Below, piece by piece: positions 59 through 59,130 of a DNA stretch of 60,621 bases; positions within the stretch are counted from its first letter, which is position 1; each line of letters opens with the position of its first letter. Made by a program: the position numbers and the translations under genes. Below the pieces are notes generated by a model, which saw only the letters and a program-made list of their open reading frames with translations, searched no databases and was not told where the DNA came from. The stretch comes from Alkalihalobacillus bogoriensis ATCC BAA-922 (lineage in GTDB: Bacteria > Bacillota > Bacilli > Bacillales > Bacillaceae_F), in NCBI RefSeq assembly GCF_000621445.1, contig NZ_JHYI01000031.1, positions 1 through 60,621 on the forward strand, written 5' to 3'.

Positions 59-100
59 ATGTTATTTGTGCTAACTAGAAGCTAGGTAAGAATTAGACCT

Positions 101-247
101 GTGGATATATTTGCAACGCCAGTGACGTTGGTTCCGTTAAATCCCCAAAAACAGAGGGGTTTATCCTCTTTTTTACTCAATAACGGAACACCTATCCGAT
201 AAATCTAGAAAGCGGTTGTTTTTCATAAAATAGCGGCACAGTTGTCC
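101..247. repeat. Family 3 element, locus A (three-unit derivative)
   Basis: One forward unit (123-139) is followed by two reverse units (181-197 and 231-247). Spacings are 58 and 50, against 51-58-51 in intact copies. The flank at 101-120 matches the reverse complement of the flank outside the last unit at 58961-58981. One 51-bp forward repeat has therefore probably been lost. The element ends 13 bases from the dapF stop codon. Confidence 0.75.
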
Positions 248-259
248 GTAACAGTTTCG

Positions 260-2060: not shown

Positions 2061-3698
2061 ATGTCGCGAGTTAAGAAAGAAACAACAAAACAAAAAATTG
2101 TAAACGCTGCAATTAAGTTGTTTCAAGAAAAAGGGTTTGAAACGACAACAGTTCAAGAAATTACAGCAAAAGCAAATGTAGCAAAAGGAACTTTCTTTAA
2201 TTATTTCCCTACAAAGGATTCCATCATGCAATCGTTAGCATTAGAACGTATACAAGAAATAACAATGCAATTGGAAAATCCGAGCTTTTTTGATTCAACC
2301 TTCTTAGCAAATGTCCGAAAATTACTCGGAACCTTACTTACAGATTATGATAAAAATCCAGAACTTACAAAGCTTACTTGGTCGCAAAGAAATATAGAAC
2401 AATCATTATTGCTGGCCATTTGGGAAAAGCTATGTAAACAAGCAATCGAACGGAAAGAAATGTTCTCTTACATCAATATTACGGTGTGGAGTCATATTTT
2501 AAATAGTCAATTTTATTATAGCTTGACAATGTTTGGGAACAGCAACTCAAAAAAAGAATGTATCGATCATATGATGCAACTTATCTCAACTTGTGTATCA
2601 GGAATATTAGTAAAAAGGGGAAATCTTACAATGCAAAAACTAGTCATTTTAGGTGGCGGCTATGGCGGCATGCGGATATTACAACGACTGTTAACGAACG
2701 ACTTACCTACCGATGTTGAAGTTACACTTGTTGATAAAATGCCTTATCACTGCTTGAAAACCGAATATTATGCATTAGCAGCTGGCACAGAACCAGATTT
2801 ACACTTACGCGTTAATTATCCAAAAGACCCAAGATTAACGATCAAATTCGGCTTCATTACCTCTATCGATCTCGATTCAAAACTTGTTCATTTAAACAAC
2901 GAAGAGTCAATTCCATATGACACATTGATTGTTGGCTTAGGCTGTGAAGACAAATATCATAATGTGCCGGGTGCTCCTGAACACACATTTAGTATTCAAA
3001 GTATGGAAGCTACAAGAAGAACGTATGAACAATTAAGCAATGTCAGACCGAACGGAATTGTTTCAATTGTTGGGGCCGGGTTAAGCGGAGTTGAATTAGC
3101 AAGTGAGCTAAGAGAAAGCCGTTCAGATTTAACGATTAAATTGTTTGATCGTGGGGAAATCATTTTAAGTGCATTTCCTAAAAAACTAAGCAATTATGTT
3201 CAAAATTGGTTCCTTGACCATGGTGTCGAGGTCATTAATAAATCAAATATTACAAAAGTAGAGCCGAACGTGCTATATAACCATGATGAACCGGTTGAAT
3301 GTGACGCTATTATTTGGACCGCTGGAATTCAACCAAACAAAGTCGTTCGTGATCTTGATGTAGCGAAAGACCAACAAGGACGTGTCATTATCACACCACA
3401 TCATCATTTACCTACTGATGAGAATGTCTTTATCGTTGGTGACTGTGCAAGCTTACCACATGCGCCAAGTGCTCAACTTGCTGAAGGTCAAGGAGAACAA
3501 ATTGTCAGCGTTTTAAAAGCAAGATGGAACAATGAAACACTTCCTGACATTTTACCAAAAATTAAATTAAAAGGTGTCTTAGGTTCATTAGGAAAAAAAC
3601 ATGGCTTTGGATTAATGGGCGAAAGAACGTTAATCGGGCGGGTGCCGCGCGTTTTAAAAAGTGGTGTGCTATGGATGTACAAATATCATAGTGGGTAA
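2061..3698 (+). CDS. yutJ: TetR regulator fused in frame to YutJ-like NADH dehydrogenase
   Basis: Residues 1-190 are a complete TetR-family repressor, with the HTH around residues 25-50. Residues 191-545 are a type II NAD(P)H dehydrogenase-like flavoprotein matching YutJ: FAD motif GGGYGG near 198-203, second dinucleotide motif GAGLSG near 338-343, and VGDCA near 460. The second part has exactly the length of a free YutJ. It begins with ATG at 2631 behind AAGGGG at a 10-base spacing, so it may also be translated separately. Either this is a genuine repressor-oxidoreductase fusion or an ancestral stop codon was lost. Such dehydrogenases oxidise NADH at the membrane and pass electrons to quinone; YutJ's own role is unproven. 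Confidence 0.85.
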   Translation: MSRVKKETTKQKIVNAAIKLFQEKGFETTTVQEITAKANVAKGTFFNYFPTKDSIMQSLALERIQEITMQLENPSFFDSTFLANVRKLLGTLLTDYDKNPELTKLTWSQRNIEQSLLLAIWEKLCKQAIERKEMFSYINITVWSHILNSQFYYSLTMFGNSNSKKECIDHMMQLISTCVSGILVKRGNLTMQKLVILGGGYGGMRILQRLLTNDLPTDVEVTLVDKMPYHCLKTEYYALAAGTEPDLHLRVNYPKDPRLTIKFGFITSIDLDSKLVHLNNEESIPYDTLIVGLGCEDKYHNVPGAPEHTFSIQSMEATRRTYEQLSNVRPNGIVSIVGAGLSGVELASELRESRSDLTIKLFDRGEIILSAFPKKLSNYVQNWFLDHGVEVINKSNITKVEPNVLYNHDEPVECDAIIWTAGIQPNKVVRDLDVAKDQQGRVIITPHHHLPTDENVFIVGDCASLPHAPSAQLAEGQGEQIVSVLKARWNNETLPDILPKIKLKGVLGSLGKKHGFGLMGERTLIGRVPRVLKSGVLWMYKYHSG

Positions 3699-3788
3699 GA
3701 AAAACGCGGGAGCGTCTTTTCTTTAAAGCGAAGTGCGCTGCCTTCGCCCTTCTAGGATAAGCTTTCAAAGCTTTACTACTACACCAAA
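3697..3788 (+). repeat. Family 2 repeat, copy 2 (internally deleted)
   Basis: Same start and end as copy 1, but the inner CCCCAAG hairpin and its flanks are cleanly missing, leaving AGCGAAGTGCGC followed by TGCCTTCGC. It begins inside the stop codon of the TetR-NDH gene and ends about 24 bases before the next terminator stem. Confidence 0.8.
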
Positions 3789-3811
3789 TTTTTTCTCATC
3801 TTTTGAAAATG

Positions 3812-3837
3812 GGGCAACAATTGTTGCCCTCTTTTTG
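3812..3837 (+). terminator. Terminator after the TetR-NDH gene
   Basis: Perfect palindrome GGGCAACAATTGTTGCCC (3812-3829) followed by a T run. It lies between convergent genes and could also serve yuzD. Confidence 0.85.
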
Positions 3838-4235: not shown

Positions 4236-4356
4236 GTGGAGCGGAGGCCACTCGACTCCTGCTGGATAGAAAGAAAAGGCGAGACCCAACAGGCATAGCC
4301 GAGGAGGCTCGGCACCTTCCCGCGGAAAGCGAGTGGCTGGAGTGCAATGGAACGAA
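4236..4356. repeat. Family 1 repeat, internal copy
   Basis: Outer arms GCCACTCG (4247-4254) and CGAGTGGC (4330-4337) enclose inner pairings such as GCGAGACCC with GGCTCGGC. It fills the gap between yuzD and yutI; the rest of 4160-4547 is AT-rich with no gene. Confidence 0.8.
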
Positions 4357-8093: not shown

Positions 8094-8278
8094 CGAAACC
8101 ACTCCTACCCTACACTCTTGTATACTGTTTTGTTTCCCCTAGAAAAACAATTGTATTTGTATAAAGGACATTATAGTCTTATTTTTTATTGTTTACAAGA
8201 AGAAATGAGAAAATTTCTATTTTTCCGCAAAAGTCTAAAAAAGCGCGTTAAAGGTAAGCGCTTTCTATATTTCGTAAC

Positions 8279-8455
8279 GGACATCTATTCCGCTATATCC
8301 ATAAAAAAAGGGCCGTTCACAATGTTATCGGACATCTGTTCCGCTAGTTTTCAATAATCAGCTTAATTACCACCCATCTACGTAAAATAACGGAATAGAT
8401 GTCCGAACGGTTGTACTAAAGCTTATGTTTTGCAATAATAACGAAACATACGTCC
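8279..8455. repeat. Family 3 element, locus B
   Basis: Four 17-bp units: forward GGACATCTATTCCGCTA at 8279 and GGACATCTGTTCCGCTA at 8330, then reverse units at 8388 and 8439. Start-to-start spacings are 51, 58 and 51. It lies upstream of hom. Confidence 0.85.
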
Positions 8456-8487
8456 GTTAGAGTTTACGGAAAGCACTCATTCCATTC

Positions 8488-8646
8488 AAAGAAAAACGCT
8501 TGATCACCTTTTCTTCAAGCGAAGTGCGGACCCCTGCCCACCTTTGACAGTGAACACCAAGTGCTCTTCGTTGGGTAGAACGAGCAGATGCACTGCCTTC
8601 GCTCTACTAGAATAAGCTTTCAAAGCTACACTGCTATGCTAAAATA
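8488..8646 (+). repeat. Family 2 repeat, copy 3 (diverged full length)
   Basis: Recognisable over its full length with many substitutions: the 5' GAAAAACGC, the AGCGAAGTGCGG arm, the inner CCAAGTGCTCTTCGTTGG hairpin and the AAGCTTTCAAAGCT end. It stops 10 bases from the yutH terminator stem. With locus B it fills 8094-8685, where no gene is seen. Confidence 0.75.
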
Positions 8647-8655
8647 TCAAAAAAA

Positions 8656-8677
8656 GCGTACCAACAACATGGTACGC
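8656..8677 (-). terminator. Terminator of yutH
   Basis: GCGTACC (8656-8662) pairs with GGTACGC (8671-8677); a run of seven Ts follows on the minus strand. Confidence 0.9.
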
Positions 8678-12898: not shown

Positions 12899-13192
12899 AT
12901 GGAACGTAATCAGCATGAAGACAAAGAACATGAAAACTACACCGATTTTTCAAATGTTGAAACGATGAAAAATTATATTTTTCCTGAGACACTTCCTGAA
13001 GGTCCATATGGTTCACCAATCAACCGGAAACTAGGCAAGAGTACACCTTGGAAAGAAGGGCAACGTGCATATAGTGCCTTTACCTATGAATTTAAATCAC
13101 TTCACCAAAACTTACCAAGAAAGTTTCCAGGGGCCCATCCGACACATGATGACCCTTCAAAAAATGAAGAACCGCCATATACAAGTAAATAA
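12899..13192 (+). CDS. Conserved Bacillus small 'cytosolic protein'
   Basis: A 97-residue hydrophilic protein with the blocks YTDFSNVE, LPEGPYGS, STPWKEGQR and GAHPTHDDP, resembling an uncharacterised family in Bacillus. No signal peptide or membrane segment. It is reached only through the hairpin at 12854-12897, which covers its ribosome-binding site. Downstream is a family 2 repeat and a strong terminator. Function unknown. Confidence 0.8.
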   Translation: MERNQHEDKEHENYTDFSNVETMKNYIFPETLPEGPYGSPINRKLGKSTPWKEGQRAYSAFTYEFKSLHQNLPRKFPGAHPTHDDPSKNEEPPYTSK

Positions 13193-13198
13193 CTTAAT

Positions 13199-13356
13199 AA
13201 GAAAAACGCGGGAGCGTCTTTTCTTTCAAGCGAAGTGCGGAGCCCTGCCCGCTTTTACAGTGAACCCCAAGTGCTCTTCTTGGGGTGAAACGCGCAGGTG
13301 CGCAGCCTTCGCTCTTCTAGAATAAGCTTTCAAAGCTTCACTGCTACACCAAAATT
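13199..13356 (+). repeat. Family 2 repeat, copy 4 (full length)
   Basis: Nearly identical to copy 1 across its length, including the CCCCAAG/CTTGGGG inner hairpin and the AAGCTTTCAAAGCTT end. It ends about 28 bases from the terminator at 13384. Confidence 0.85.
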
Positions 13357-13383
13357 TTTATACCTTCTTATCTTATAAGAAAA

Positions 13384-13419
13384 ACTGAGTGAGGAAACCT
13401 ACCTCACTCAGTCCTTTTT
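13384..13419. terminator. Strong terminator (both directions)
   Basis: ACTGAGTGAGG (13384-13394) pairs with CCTCACTCAGT (13402-13412), with T5 on one side and A-rich sequence on the other. The stop codon of the pseudogene at 13404 lies inside the stem. Confidence 0.85.
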
Positions 13420-13616
13420 GTTTCCTGCAAATCTGAAAGCCTGTACTCTACTCCATGTACGCCTTTATCATACTCAGGATACATTTCTCCTCCACAAGTT
13501 TCACAGGAAAACATTGGTGGTGTCATTAGATCGCCACCATCCATTAAACCAAAATCTCTTACCATATCAAAATGTATCTTACTTTCTCATGACACACTAA
13601 ACAAACATAGCTGATA
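13404..13616 (-). pseudogene. Broken zinc-ribbon gene (5' truncated, frameshifted)
   Basis: Reading leftward, the DNA encodes ISYVCLVCHEK, then after a one-base frame change HFDMVRDFG, LMDGGDLMTP, SCETCGGEMYPEY and DKGVHGVEYRLSDL to a TGA at 13406-13404. Two CxxC pairs indicate a small zinc ribbon. There is no start codon; the 5' end abuts the GTCC hairpin array, which may have replaced it. The frameshift could be a sequencing error, but the lost start is not. Family not recognised. Confidence 0.6.
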
Positions 13617-13800
13617 GAAGCCTTCTATTGGACACTTCTCTCCAGGGGACCCATCTCATTTGTATGAAGGACACTTTCGCTTTGTTTTCTCCTCGCTTTG
13701 TCCTTCATCGCCTTTATGAAGGACACTTTGGCTTCATTTTCTCCACGTTTTGTCCTTCATCGCCTTTATGAAGGACACTTTCTCCTTATTTTGTCCCTCA
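13612..13800. repeat. Family 4 hairpin array, short (52-bp period)
   Basis: The array starts with an ATAGAA/TTCTATTGGAC hairpin at 13613-13633. ATGAAGGAC then occurs at 13664, 13716 and 13768, exactly 52 bases apart, and GTCCTTCAT left arms at 13700 and 13752 complete two hairpins. A partial GTCCCTCA closes it. Confidence 0.8.
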
Positions 13801-13875
13801 CCACTGTATTAATAACAACAGCTTGCATTTAACGAAGTTTGACGTATTCGTTTCATAATAAATATAAAATGCTTA

Positions 13876-13948
13876 AAGAAAAACGCGAGAGCGTCTTTTC
13901 GTTTCAAGCGAAGTGCGGAGCCCTGCCCGCTTTTTAAGTGAACCCCAA
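13876..13948 (+). repeat. Family 2 repeat, copy 5 (3' truncated)
   Basis: Only the first half is present, ending at GAACCCCAA, the left arm of the inner hairpin, 20 bases before the yutD terminator stem. Confidence 0.8.
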
Positions 13949-24511: not shown

Positions 24512-24591
24512 GCTAATACTCCTTACAGCCACTTTTTTTGCTATTATACCATAGGATGAATGAAGGCAAGAGCGCTGTTGCTCACTGTAAC

Positions 24592-24768
24592 GGACATCTA
24601 TTCCGCTATTTTTACAAAGCAGCCTTGTTTCTCAATCTTATCGGACATCTGTTCCGTTATTAACGCTGATTTCGGGTGTTTCTCCTCTATTTTGAGCAAA
24701 TAAAGGAATTGGTGTCCGAACGCAATTAAAAACAGCAGAAAATGACATCAATAACGGATTCAATGTCC
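24592..24768. repeat. Family 3 element, locus C
   Basis: Forward units at 24592 (GGACATCTATTCCGCTA) and 24643 (GGACATCTGTTCCGTTA), reverse units at 24701 and 24752. Spacings are exactly 51, 58 and 51. The last unit ends 22 bases from the stop of the lipoprotein gene, which has no other terminator. Confidence 0.88.
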
Positions 24769-24789
24769 GATATGATTTTACTTAGTTTC

Positions 24790-34699: not shown

Positions 34700-35110
34700 T
34701 AGTTTATGAACACTTTTCTTCGGGGTTTTCGCTCCTTTTGTTTAATAGCATTTTTCTATTGGACACTTCCCTCTGCTTTTGCCTTGTTTTGTCCTATAGA
34801 ACCCTTCTATTGGACACTTCTCTCACTTTCCGCTCCAATCTGTCCTTCATTAACTTTATGAAGAACACTTCTCCTCATTTTCCACTCGGTTTTGTCCTTC
34901 ATCGGCCTTATGAAGGACACTTCTCTTCATTTCCCGCTCCATTCTGTCCTTCATCGGCCTTATGAAGGACACTTTGCCTCATTTTCCACTCCATTTTGTC
35001 CTTCATCCACCTTATGAAGGACACTTCTCCTCATTTTCCACTCCATTTTGTCCTTCATCAGCCTTATGAAGGACACTTCTCCCCATTTCACACTTCATTT
35101 TGTCCTTCAT
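34700..35110. repeat. Family 4 hairpin array, long (52-bp period)
   Basis: GTCCTTCAT left arms start at 34842, 34894, 34946, 34998, 35050 and 35102, exactly 52 bases apart, each followed 7 bases later by ATGAAGGAC except the last. The array opens with the variant hairpin GTCCTATAGAA/TTCTATTGGAC (34791-34815). The 35-base spacers are themselves alike (CACTTCTCCTCATTTTCCAC type), so this is not CRISPR. 34464-34699 holds nothing recognisable. Confidence 0.9.
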
Positions 35111-37847: not shown

Positions 37848-38003
37848 AAAAAAACCTTCCCGCAACTGAGCAGAAAGGTGTTCTTTTCCTTTCTCTCATC
37901 TACCAAAGCCAACGCTTTGCAGGAATTAGCACTTCTCTAGTTTGGTCAACTAAAGGTTGCTGGGTTTCATCGGGCCCGTCCCTCCACCTCTCTCGATAAG
38001 AGT
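37848..38003 (-). promoter_or_regulatory. SAM-I (S-box) riboswitch upstream of metN
   Basis: On the minus strand the aptamer shows CTCTTATCGAGAGAGG, GTGGAGGGACGGGCCC, GATGAAACCCAGCAACC, GTGCTAATTCCTGCAAAG and AGATGAGAGAA in the canonical order (38003 down to about 37891). It is followed by the terminator ACCTTTC/GGGAAGGT and T7 at 37848-37880. Expected action: SAM binding stabilises the terminator and shuts off methionine uptake. Confidence 0.96.
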
Positions 38004-54019: not shown

Positions 54020-54091
54020 CATCATCCACCTTTCTTACATTGATTAGGCTGTCGATCCTTTTCGACAGCTTAATCATATCATAATTGTATC

Positions 54092-54268
54092 GGCCATCCG
54101 TTCCGCTATTTTCCGAAAAAAGCGCATTTCTCGAATGCTACCGGACATTGGTTCCGTTATATTCGATAATCACAAGTTTATCACGGCCAAGTCAATGAAA
54201 TAACGGCACAGATGTCCACTTGATATGAAAAAAACGTTATTTTCCTTAAAATAGCGGAACAAATGTCC
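54092..54268. repeat. Family 3 element, locus D
   Basis: Forward units at 54092 and 54143, reverse units at 54201 (TAACGGCACAGATGTCC) and 54252 (TAGCGGAACAAATGTCC). Spacings are 51, 58 and 51. It ends 37 bases from the stop of the ABC permease gene, which has no other terminator. Confidence 0.88.
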
Positions 54269-54304
54269 GTAACATTATTCACAATACAATCTGTAACCGA
54301 CCCT

Positions 54305-56569: not shown

Positions 56570-56665
56570 AAGAAAAACGTAGGAGCGTCTTTTCGTTTCA
56601 AGCGAAGTACGGAGCATTCGTTCTTCTAGAATAAACTTTCAAAACTTCTCTGCTAGACCAAAACT
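56570..56665 (+). repeat. Family 2 repeat, copy 6 (internally deleted)
   Basis: 5' hairpin, AAGCGAAGTACGGAG directly joined to CATTCGTTCTT and the AACTTTCAAAACTT end. The inner hairpin is missing, as in copy 2. It ends about 25 bases from the next terminator. Confidence 0.75.
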
Positions 56666-56689
56666 TTTATGCTATCTTTTCTTTCAAAA

Positions 56690-56735
56690 AAAAGATAGCT
56701 AGCGGATGAAATCATCCACCAACTATCTCTTTTTG
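56690..56735 (-). terminator. Terminator overlapping a stop codon
   Basis: AGATAG, GGATGA with TCATCC, CTATCT form a stem that includes the stop of the gene at 56712; eight Ts follow on the minus strand. Confidence 0.75.
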
Positions 56736-58764: not shown

Positions 58765-58784
58765 ATAACACCCGGGTAGCTATC

Positions 58785-58960
58785 TGACATCTGTTCCGCT
58801 ATTGAAGCGAAAATAGATTATTTTTCAATGTTAACGGACATCCATTCCGTTAACTGCCTAAGATTCAATGAAATAGTTGCTAAAACTACATGTAACGGAA
58901 CGTATGTCGACTAAGGTACGTAAAACATTGATTTCAAGCAAAATAACGGAACATACGTCA
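58785..58960. repeat. Family 3 element, locus E
   Basis: Forward units at 58785 (TGACATCTGTTCCGCTA) and 58836, reverse units at 58893 and 58944. Spacings are 51, 57 and 51. The flank after the last unit (TTGCAAATATATCCAC) recurs inverted at 101-117. Confidence 0.85.
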
Positions 58961-59130
58961 TTGGCCTTGCAAATATATCCACAATTGATGAAGAATATTA
59001 ATCAAGATTCACTTTGATTTAAAAATATAGAAAATATGTATAAATTTTACATTGAACTTTATGAGAAATGAGCAAAAAAGTTGAGGGGGCAGTATTTAAG
59101 CCATTCGTTATCTAAAATTTGTAAGTTTTA

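Follow-up and report, generated by a model that had tools for sequence, protein, structure and literature searches.

A four-box intergenic element with nearly constant spacing in the genome of Alkalihalobacillus bogoriensis

Bacterial dispersed palindromic repeats are often taken for selfish remnants or for loose, multi-purpose sites. Among described systems, the closest to the element analysed here are the BIME and REP sequences of enterobacteria and pseudomonads, which are described as short extragenic palindromes occurring in both orientations, with regular spacing and in high copy number (PMC2817692, PMC3733652). REPINs consist of two REPs around one spacer (PMC8049555). The bcr1 MITE of the Bacillus cereus group is described as an intergenic, high-copy sequence of 147-167 bp (PMC2267715), and IS21 and Mu carry two direct protein sites per inverted end, with a spacing tied to the synaptic complex.

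We analysed a 60,621-nucleotide stretch of A. bogoriensis ATCC BAA-922 (the window, which is contig C22 of the 5.0-Mb source genome, G000) that carries copies of a four-box element resembling each of these systems in some respects. With BIMEs and REPs it shares the properties listed above, but its regular extragenic palindromes, though found in both orientations, follow the order ++-- rather than a strict alternation. Also unlike them, it holds this order fixed at about 5-6-5 helical turns, has no GTAG/CGTC tag and no linkage to a RAYT (REP-associated tyrosine transposase), and its cores are constrained in place. We regard it as BIME-like in place and arrangement with a stricter architecture, and we claim no membership of the REP or REPIN families. 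Like a REPIN it is short, has inverted units at its ends and is copied as a piece; unlike one, it has two fixed-pitch units per end, and one element-rich genome has no RAYT match. It recalls bcr1 in being intergenic, abundant and of similar length, and is set apart by description, in that no target duplication was seen and its anatomy is one of four operators.

Among the titles and abstract beginnings searched, the four-box layout was not found, and queries with five 13-letter forms of the unit returned unrelated subjects only (again titles and abstract beginnings); PMC6006769 yielded no passage on Bacillus, Firmicutes or Bacilli. In several families of a single order, the repeat preserves an architecture that is exact almost to the base pair over some sixteen turns of the helix. 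Because its constraint is measurable copy by copy, it can be used to test whether such repeats are chromosome architecture.

Anatomy and number of the four-box element

The unit is a 21-bp near-palindrome, TWWCGGACATNNNTTCCGYTA, centred on seven bases and fixed in orientation by CATNNNT. Four units, two facing each way (++--), form a whole element of about 186 bp with twofold symmetry, in which the dyad centres lie 51, 62 and 51 bp apart. At 10.2-10.5 bp per turn these spacings come to about 5, 6 and 5 helical turns, so that by established DNA geometry the four dyads should point to roughly the same side of the helix. A preliminary description of this DNA had given 51-58-51 for copies B, C and D; this is the same geometry counted from the starts of a 17-mer, and between dyads it becomes 51-62-51. 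The 17-mer itself, at up to 3 mismatches, has 12 matches in the window, against a mean of 0.05 and a maximum of 1 in 100 shuffles. The window contains the following copies, each given with the strands of its units:

~100..251, locus A, decayed fifth copy: only the reverse units 181-201 and 231-251 still score (-- at 50)
8275..8459, copy B, complete: units 8275-8295 (+), 8326-8346 (+), 8388-8408 (-), 8439-8459 (-); spacing 51-62-51
24588..24772, copy C, complete: units 24588-24608 (+), 24639-24659 (+), 24701-24721 (-), 24752-24772 (-); spacing 51-62-51
54088..54272, copy D, complete: units 54088-54108 (+), 54139-54159 (+), 54201-54221 (-), 54252-54272 (-); spacing 51-62-51
58781..58964, copy E, units 3 and 4 degenerate: units 58781-58801 (+), 58832-58852 (+), 58893-58913 (-), 58944-58964 (-); spacing 51-61-51

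Four of these had been called intact, which is true of B, C and D and only loosely of E with its degenerate units; the scan scores E as ++- (51, 61), and its fourth unit, below the scan threshold, was read by eye. In the sister species (G006), whose long alignments with G000 show roughly 90 to 98 percent identity, copies B and D have ++-- counterparts. The place aligned to copy C holds a ++-- element at 51, 62, 51, the counterpart of E is ++-- at 51, 63, 51, and that of the decayed locus A is a full ++-- element (51, 60, 51).

Across the whole genome, an 18-bp pattern allowing up to 3 mismatches matches 888 units (442 forward, 446 reverse), compared with 4 (1 + 3) for the same pattern reversed. 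Scanned with a weight matrix, 1.26 Mb of G000 yield 322 units, compared with 8 for the same DNA read backwards. These 1.26 Mb hold 90 clusters: 64 are ++--, 7 ++-, 3 +--, 2 -- and 2 +-, with 9 single units and 3 longer compounds. Extrapolating either from the pattern matches (888/4) or from the 64 elements per quarter genome, we estimate a genome total of about 220 to 250 elements.

Spacing within these clusters is nearly constant throughout the quarter of the genome examined, as the preliminary description had expected. Of the 75 ++ neighbours, 68 are 51 bp apart (5 at 50, 1 at 52, 1 at 56), as are 63 of the 73 -- neighbours (7 at 50, 2 at 52, 1 at 49). The 80 +- neighbours gather at 62 bp (52 cases) and 63 bp (17), with 5 at 61, 2 at 60 and four single cases at 43, 67, 92 and 95. 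Departures are nearly always of 1 or 2 bp, with few clusters further off (those at 56 and at 43, 67, 92 and 95), and no same-strand neighbours in the 1.26 Mb differ by one whole turn.

In 30 elements with exact spacing, most spacer columns are near background, and to that extent the spacers are, as first described, not conserved. A- and T-tracts at fixed coordinates stand out from them. Each arm has A-runs at unit coordinates 28-32 (AAAAA) and 79-82 (AAAA), with a run of T (TTTTT) between them at 39-43. Measured inward from the outer dyad over 49 elements, stretches of four or more A or T are most frequent at 12, 20, 31 and 71 bp. A wedge model gives the elements a net curvature of 0.852, which is no greater than in other intergenic DNA (0.849, p 0.19) though slightly greater than in spacer shuffles (0.867, p 0.023). 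Strong intrinsic curvature from phased tracts is thus unsupported by the model, and we make no claim of strong bending.

Constraint between sister species

Comparison with G006 allows constraint to be measured on elements in place. At the aligned G006 position, 27 ++-- elements of G000 have a cluster of at least three units. A both-flank test on 38 G000 clusters found 17 present and 3 absent in G006, with 18 unresolved; the 3 absences among the 20 resolved clusters indicate that single copies are dispensable.

Substitutions were counted in 21 orthologous elements, which are the survivors of an alignment filter that 11 of 32 failed. The GGACA core changed at 1 of 420 positions, TA at 1 of 167, T9 at 3 of 84, TTCCG at 11 of 420, TWWC at 11 of 336 and Y at 6 of 84, compared with 33 of 252 for NNN within the same unit (GGACA versus NNN, Fisher p 5e-14). 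Spacers changed at 186 of 2117 positions in all. Within the arms this comprises the T-tract (8/209), the A-tract (14/209) and other arm spacer (68/708), and within the middle stretch the A-tract (11/166) and the remainder (77/697). For comparison, coding sequence changed at 359 of 7902 positions and other intergenic DNA at 158 of 3621. The rate of change in spacers is thus about double that of other nearby intergenic DNA and far above that of the unit cores; NNN changes fastest of all. The free evolution of NNN inside the unit speaks against a gene-conversion origin of the conserved cores.

Spacing is constrained as well. Among copies that align across in both species, to which this comparison is limited, 5 of 63 unit-to-unit intervals differ in length; of 1083 intergenic 51-bp controls, 240 do (one-sided Fisher p 0.003; 23 further controls could not be mapped). 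Changes of at least 2 bp occurred in 1 of 63 unit intervals and in 101 of 1083 controls (one-sided Fisher p 0.018). The orthologues contain 15 spacer indels, all of 1 bp and balanced between the two directions (8 and 7), some of which may be alignment artefacts.

The preliminary description had proposed selection on geometry beyond recent copying, and this proposal is supported: spacing is kept across the genome and in orthologues, and cores change more slowly than spacers. Copying of whole elements also occurs, so descent contributes to the common spacing. In addition, modules of about 51 bp have been lost and tandem duplications have arisen between G000 and G006, which means that recombination, too, moves in steps of the pitch.

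Position at gene ends and possible modes of action

With genes called by a crude ORF rule, all but one of the 77 clusters that have three or more units are intergenic, and the exception falls within a short ORF. The 76 intergenic clusters are found between 27 convergent, 47 codirectional and 2 divergent gene pairs, as compared with 50 convergent, 199 codirectional and 59 divergent pairs among intergenic regions of at least 250 bp; divergent pairs are avoided (p 0.00016) and convergent pairs favoured (p 0.0004). On the stop-codon side, the median distance is 53 bp over 101 cases. In G006, the element lies about 43 bp past 5S rRNA in the two operon loci covered by the Rfam scan (L187, L190), and two more G006 loci share a similar spacer.

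We think it probable that the element acts at the DNA level, as a platform of four operators bound by protein. To a boundary role at transcription-unit ends, played together with the putative binding complex, we give perhaps half that weight. The alternatives below differ in whether the element works as RNA, as a mobile sequence or as a substrate of a familiar enzyme.

The first is a role in RNA, where a long 3′-end hairpin (unit 1 with 4, unit 2 with 3) would end transcription or shield the mRNA; we consider it unlikely. The element does sit directly past stop codons, and 31 of 56 element-adjoining gene ends have no terminator-like site of their own, as is also true of 125 of 266 gene ends without an element. 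Its RNA fold is strong: MFE averages about -62 kcal/mol, z averages -7.9 relative to mononucleotide shuffles (40 elements), and real spacers contribute on average 5.5 kcal/mol more than shuffled ones. The fold is strong because the two halves are inverted copies of one consensus. Against an RNA role, there is no covariation within elements: across 33 elements, spacer 1 matches the complement of spacer 3 no better in its own element (0.445) than in other elements (0.465, permutation p 0.94), and pairing of unit 1 with 4 (17.17 of 21 within elements, 17.18 between) and of unit 2 with 3 (16.00 within, 15.70 between) is much the same. The middle stretch, which is a free hairpin loop in the RNA model, keeps its length in 24 of 27 orthologous pairs and changes by 1 bp in the other 3. 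Furthermore, single-unit hairpins are weak, with medians of -3.1 kcal/mol in one sense and -3.7 in the other. The first terminator-like site falls inside the element at 1 of 56 ends, before it at 14 and after it at 10. The nested RNA fold once offered as an explanation of the geometry is thus disfavoured, both by the missing covariation and by the kept length of the middle stretch. Nor is an intrinsic terminator supported, given the weak unit hairpin (-3.1 kcal/mol) and the single end with a terminator-like site inside. In the window, an Rfam scan at gathering score matched only a SAM riboswitch (37893-38002), and nothing at the element.

An improbable alternative, in our judgement, is a REPIN- or BIME-like repeat whose unit is a single-stranded DNA REP hairpin moved by a domesticated RAYT. 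Such a repeat would account for extragenic inverted palindromic units in hundreds of copies, some of them copied without their flanks. Spacers of some element pairs are 74-85 percent identical (all-pair mean 56 percent) while their 100-bp flanks are near random (0.515), which indicates that the element is copied as a piece; in six groups aligned by eye, the likeness ends about 0-9 bp from the outer units. In some pairs one arm is more alike than the other, suggesting that arms recombine. RAYT matches occur in 50 of 54 chosen genomes, element-positive and element-negative alike. Inside the genus the pattern is one strong match apiece in G000 and G006, and weak, partial matches only in G005. RAYTs are described as single-copy and vertically inherited (PMC8049555).

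Several lines of evidence argue against this origin. First, none of 31 RAYT loci, taken with about 1.5 kb on either side, contains a spaced unit pair, and the locus of the source genome contains 0 units; a lone unit-like match recurs at one position within the gene region of three loci, and one locus carries two copies of TGTCC at a distance of 50 bp. Second, G270 has 51 pattern matches (some in tandem arrays) and no RAYT match, while all 13 tested congeners of G232 without the element do have a RAYT match. Third, element-positive genomes are scattered, except for two congener pairs, in a tree of 30 RAYTs (8 from positives) that leaves out the G278 row, G232, G094 and G141. Fourth, GTAG and CGTC tags are missing from the 30 elements analysed: just ahead of the outer unit stand four weak columns (commonest bases A, T, C and G, at 40-52 percent), and TTT comes after it. 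Finally, constraint in place between sister species is unexpected of a neutral repeat. Loci, distribution and tree leave a RAYT unsupported as the mobiliser, though the within-genus pattern fits. A stand-alone RAYT-like gene is present in the source genome (L034, contig C10, ORF 1468-2034), at 74.3 bits against an NCBIfam cut-off of 80; the gene adjoining it is, judging by eye, presumably fabZ.

More doubtful still is a miniature transposon with two transposase sites per end, as in IS21 and Mu, whose transpososome sets the spacing and whose copies decay neutrally. Direct site pairs at inverted ends recall L1/L2 and R1/R2 of IS21, but the IS21 repeats are 23 bp apart, compared with a pitch of 51 bp here (PMC10122671). 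As in a MITE, the outer units are inverted and one consensus is common to both arms (terminal inverted repeats), and copying of whole elements is seen. In contrast to IS21 and Mu, the ends are fixed 62 bp apart, a middle spacing that a transposon does not need, and no transposase was found. Between G000 and G006 there is no clean insertion; the 4 absences examined are ragged, with neither a target-site duplication nor a clean empty site. An unsystematic look among the unit clusters noticed no autonomous parent with a gene between the arms, viral contigs yielded no match to the exact two-unit pattern, and neither plasmids nor phages yielded one to the single element searched against them. Constraint on orthologous copies also speaks against neutral decay.

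Least likely, and very much so, is a strong DNA gyrase or topoisomerase site like E. coli BIME-2, which would suit the position past genes and 5S rRNA and require no new protein, but the element is patchy while gyrase is, to our knowledge, universal, and the element has no excess curvature. Gyrase cleavage has been reported in BIME-2, together with a gyrase motif that spans about 130 bp with phased G+C variation (PMC6379681); that motif is degenerate, in contrast to four sharp operators over 186 bp here.

The platform reading, which predicts a protein bound to the element, can be set out in steps. Each operator would bind a putative protein, probably a dimer, that may contact GGACA and the mirrored TCCG. 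Four such dimers could join in one compact complex looping or wrapping the element. With less weight, this complex might serve as a boundary at transcription-unit ends, for example against supercoils or a passing polymerase, a role that parallels a suggestion made for BIMEs.

Distribution and a second repeat family

A tandem unit pair at 51 bp, with up to 2 mismatches, occurs in 47 of 397 genomes of the order, from 11 families by tool labels. Of these genomes, 14 have at least 10 matches; low pair counts may be chance, and some matches (G270, G173, G015) are tandem arrays of the F2 kind described below. The distribution is patchy among close relatives. G257 has 37 pairs, its congener G212 has 8, and the other G257 congeners tested for RAYT have 0; pairs likewise number 0 in G005, of the source genome's own genus, and in 13 congeners of G232. 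With only 9 unit matches in G005 and no spaced pair in the G232 congeners, an essential role is unlikely. In a phylum sample of 199 genomes, 196 of them outside the order, the only genome matching at up to 1 mismatch is the source genome itself. Among 15 named loci, none has a unit pair 40-75 bp apart and two have a single unit.

At 35 loci from 27 other genomes, plain ++-- elements within 1 bp of 51-62-51 are present in 10 genomes; most of these loci were fetched for a ++ pair at 51, so that only the 62 and the second 51 are independent. The tracts recur in other families as well: 23 arms, drawn from 17 other genomes, have them at matching coordinates (A-tract 29-32, 74-91 percent; T-tract 40-43, 61-83 percent), with units selected by pattern and tracts not. 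Longer runs of chained elements, with 38-39 or about 50 bp from - to +, are seen at L119 (G248), L142 (G127) and in the L201-L216 region of G006.

In G257, nine of the ten copies fetched retain the four units at the element spacing. One copy is without its fourth unit and one is without part of its left side, and at all ten places (L177-L186) the element is embedded centrally in a larger mosaic repeat of some 680 bp. Since these copies sit within that repeat, and the tested G006 ones (2 loci) past 5S rRNA, we count neither as proof of recent transposition.

The window also contains two arrays of a second family, F2, whose relation to the four-box element we infer:

34726..35110, F2 tandem array of 51-52 bp units, GGACA core and inverted TGTCC in each period, no strand assigned
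13614..13812, second F2 tandem array, period 52, no strand assigned

F2 resembles the four-box element in its GGACA core and 51-52 bp pitch, and differs from it in forming direct tandem arrays of 2-9 units, with an inverted TGTCC in each period and no ++-- dyad. On both strands of the scanned part of G000, 36 GGACA runs of 2 to 9 repeats at 50-53 bp lack a full four-box unit; a given array may be counted once per strand, and the 15 two-repeat runs include chance matches or decayed four-box elements. The pitch is 52 bp in 96 of 110 F2 spacings. In 100-kb samples, 52 is the commonest intergenic repeat lag in G000, G006 and G005, and no such peak appears in three negative genomes. The word at this lag contains GGACA in G000 and G006 and is another word in G005. 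An array of 26 forward units at 51-52 bp is found in G313 (locus L146). The common core and pitch suggest that F2 and the four-box element may belong to one recognition system.

Tentatively, and as a possibility rather than an expectation, we propose a chromosome-organising system of the Bacillales that has so far gone undescribed. One patchy putative DNA-binding family would act on GGACA-type operators at a five-turn pitch, building either a closed four-operator complex or F2 filaments at hundreds of gene ends, including those of rRNA operons, and setting topological or transcriptional borders. Its sites would have spread as miniature elements and then been kept by selection.

Other features are also present in the window. 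A DDE transposase (PF01609, 59131-60363, minus strand) adjoins copy E. The same 44 bases stand at both contig ends (1-44 and 60578-60621) and a third copy, 91 percent identical, lies at 4300-4343, so the contig seems to end in a repeat. Another dispersed family, AAGAAAAACGCGGGAGCGTC..., occurs at 1382-1569, 3697-3819, 8487-8674, 13177-13384, 13876-13948 and 56570-56693, and repeats of this type are found at dozens of places in G006 at 80-92 percent identity.
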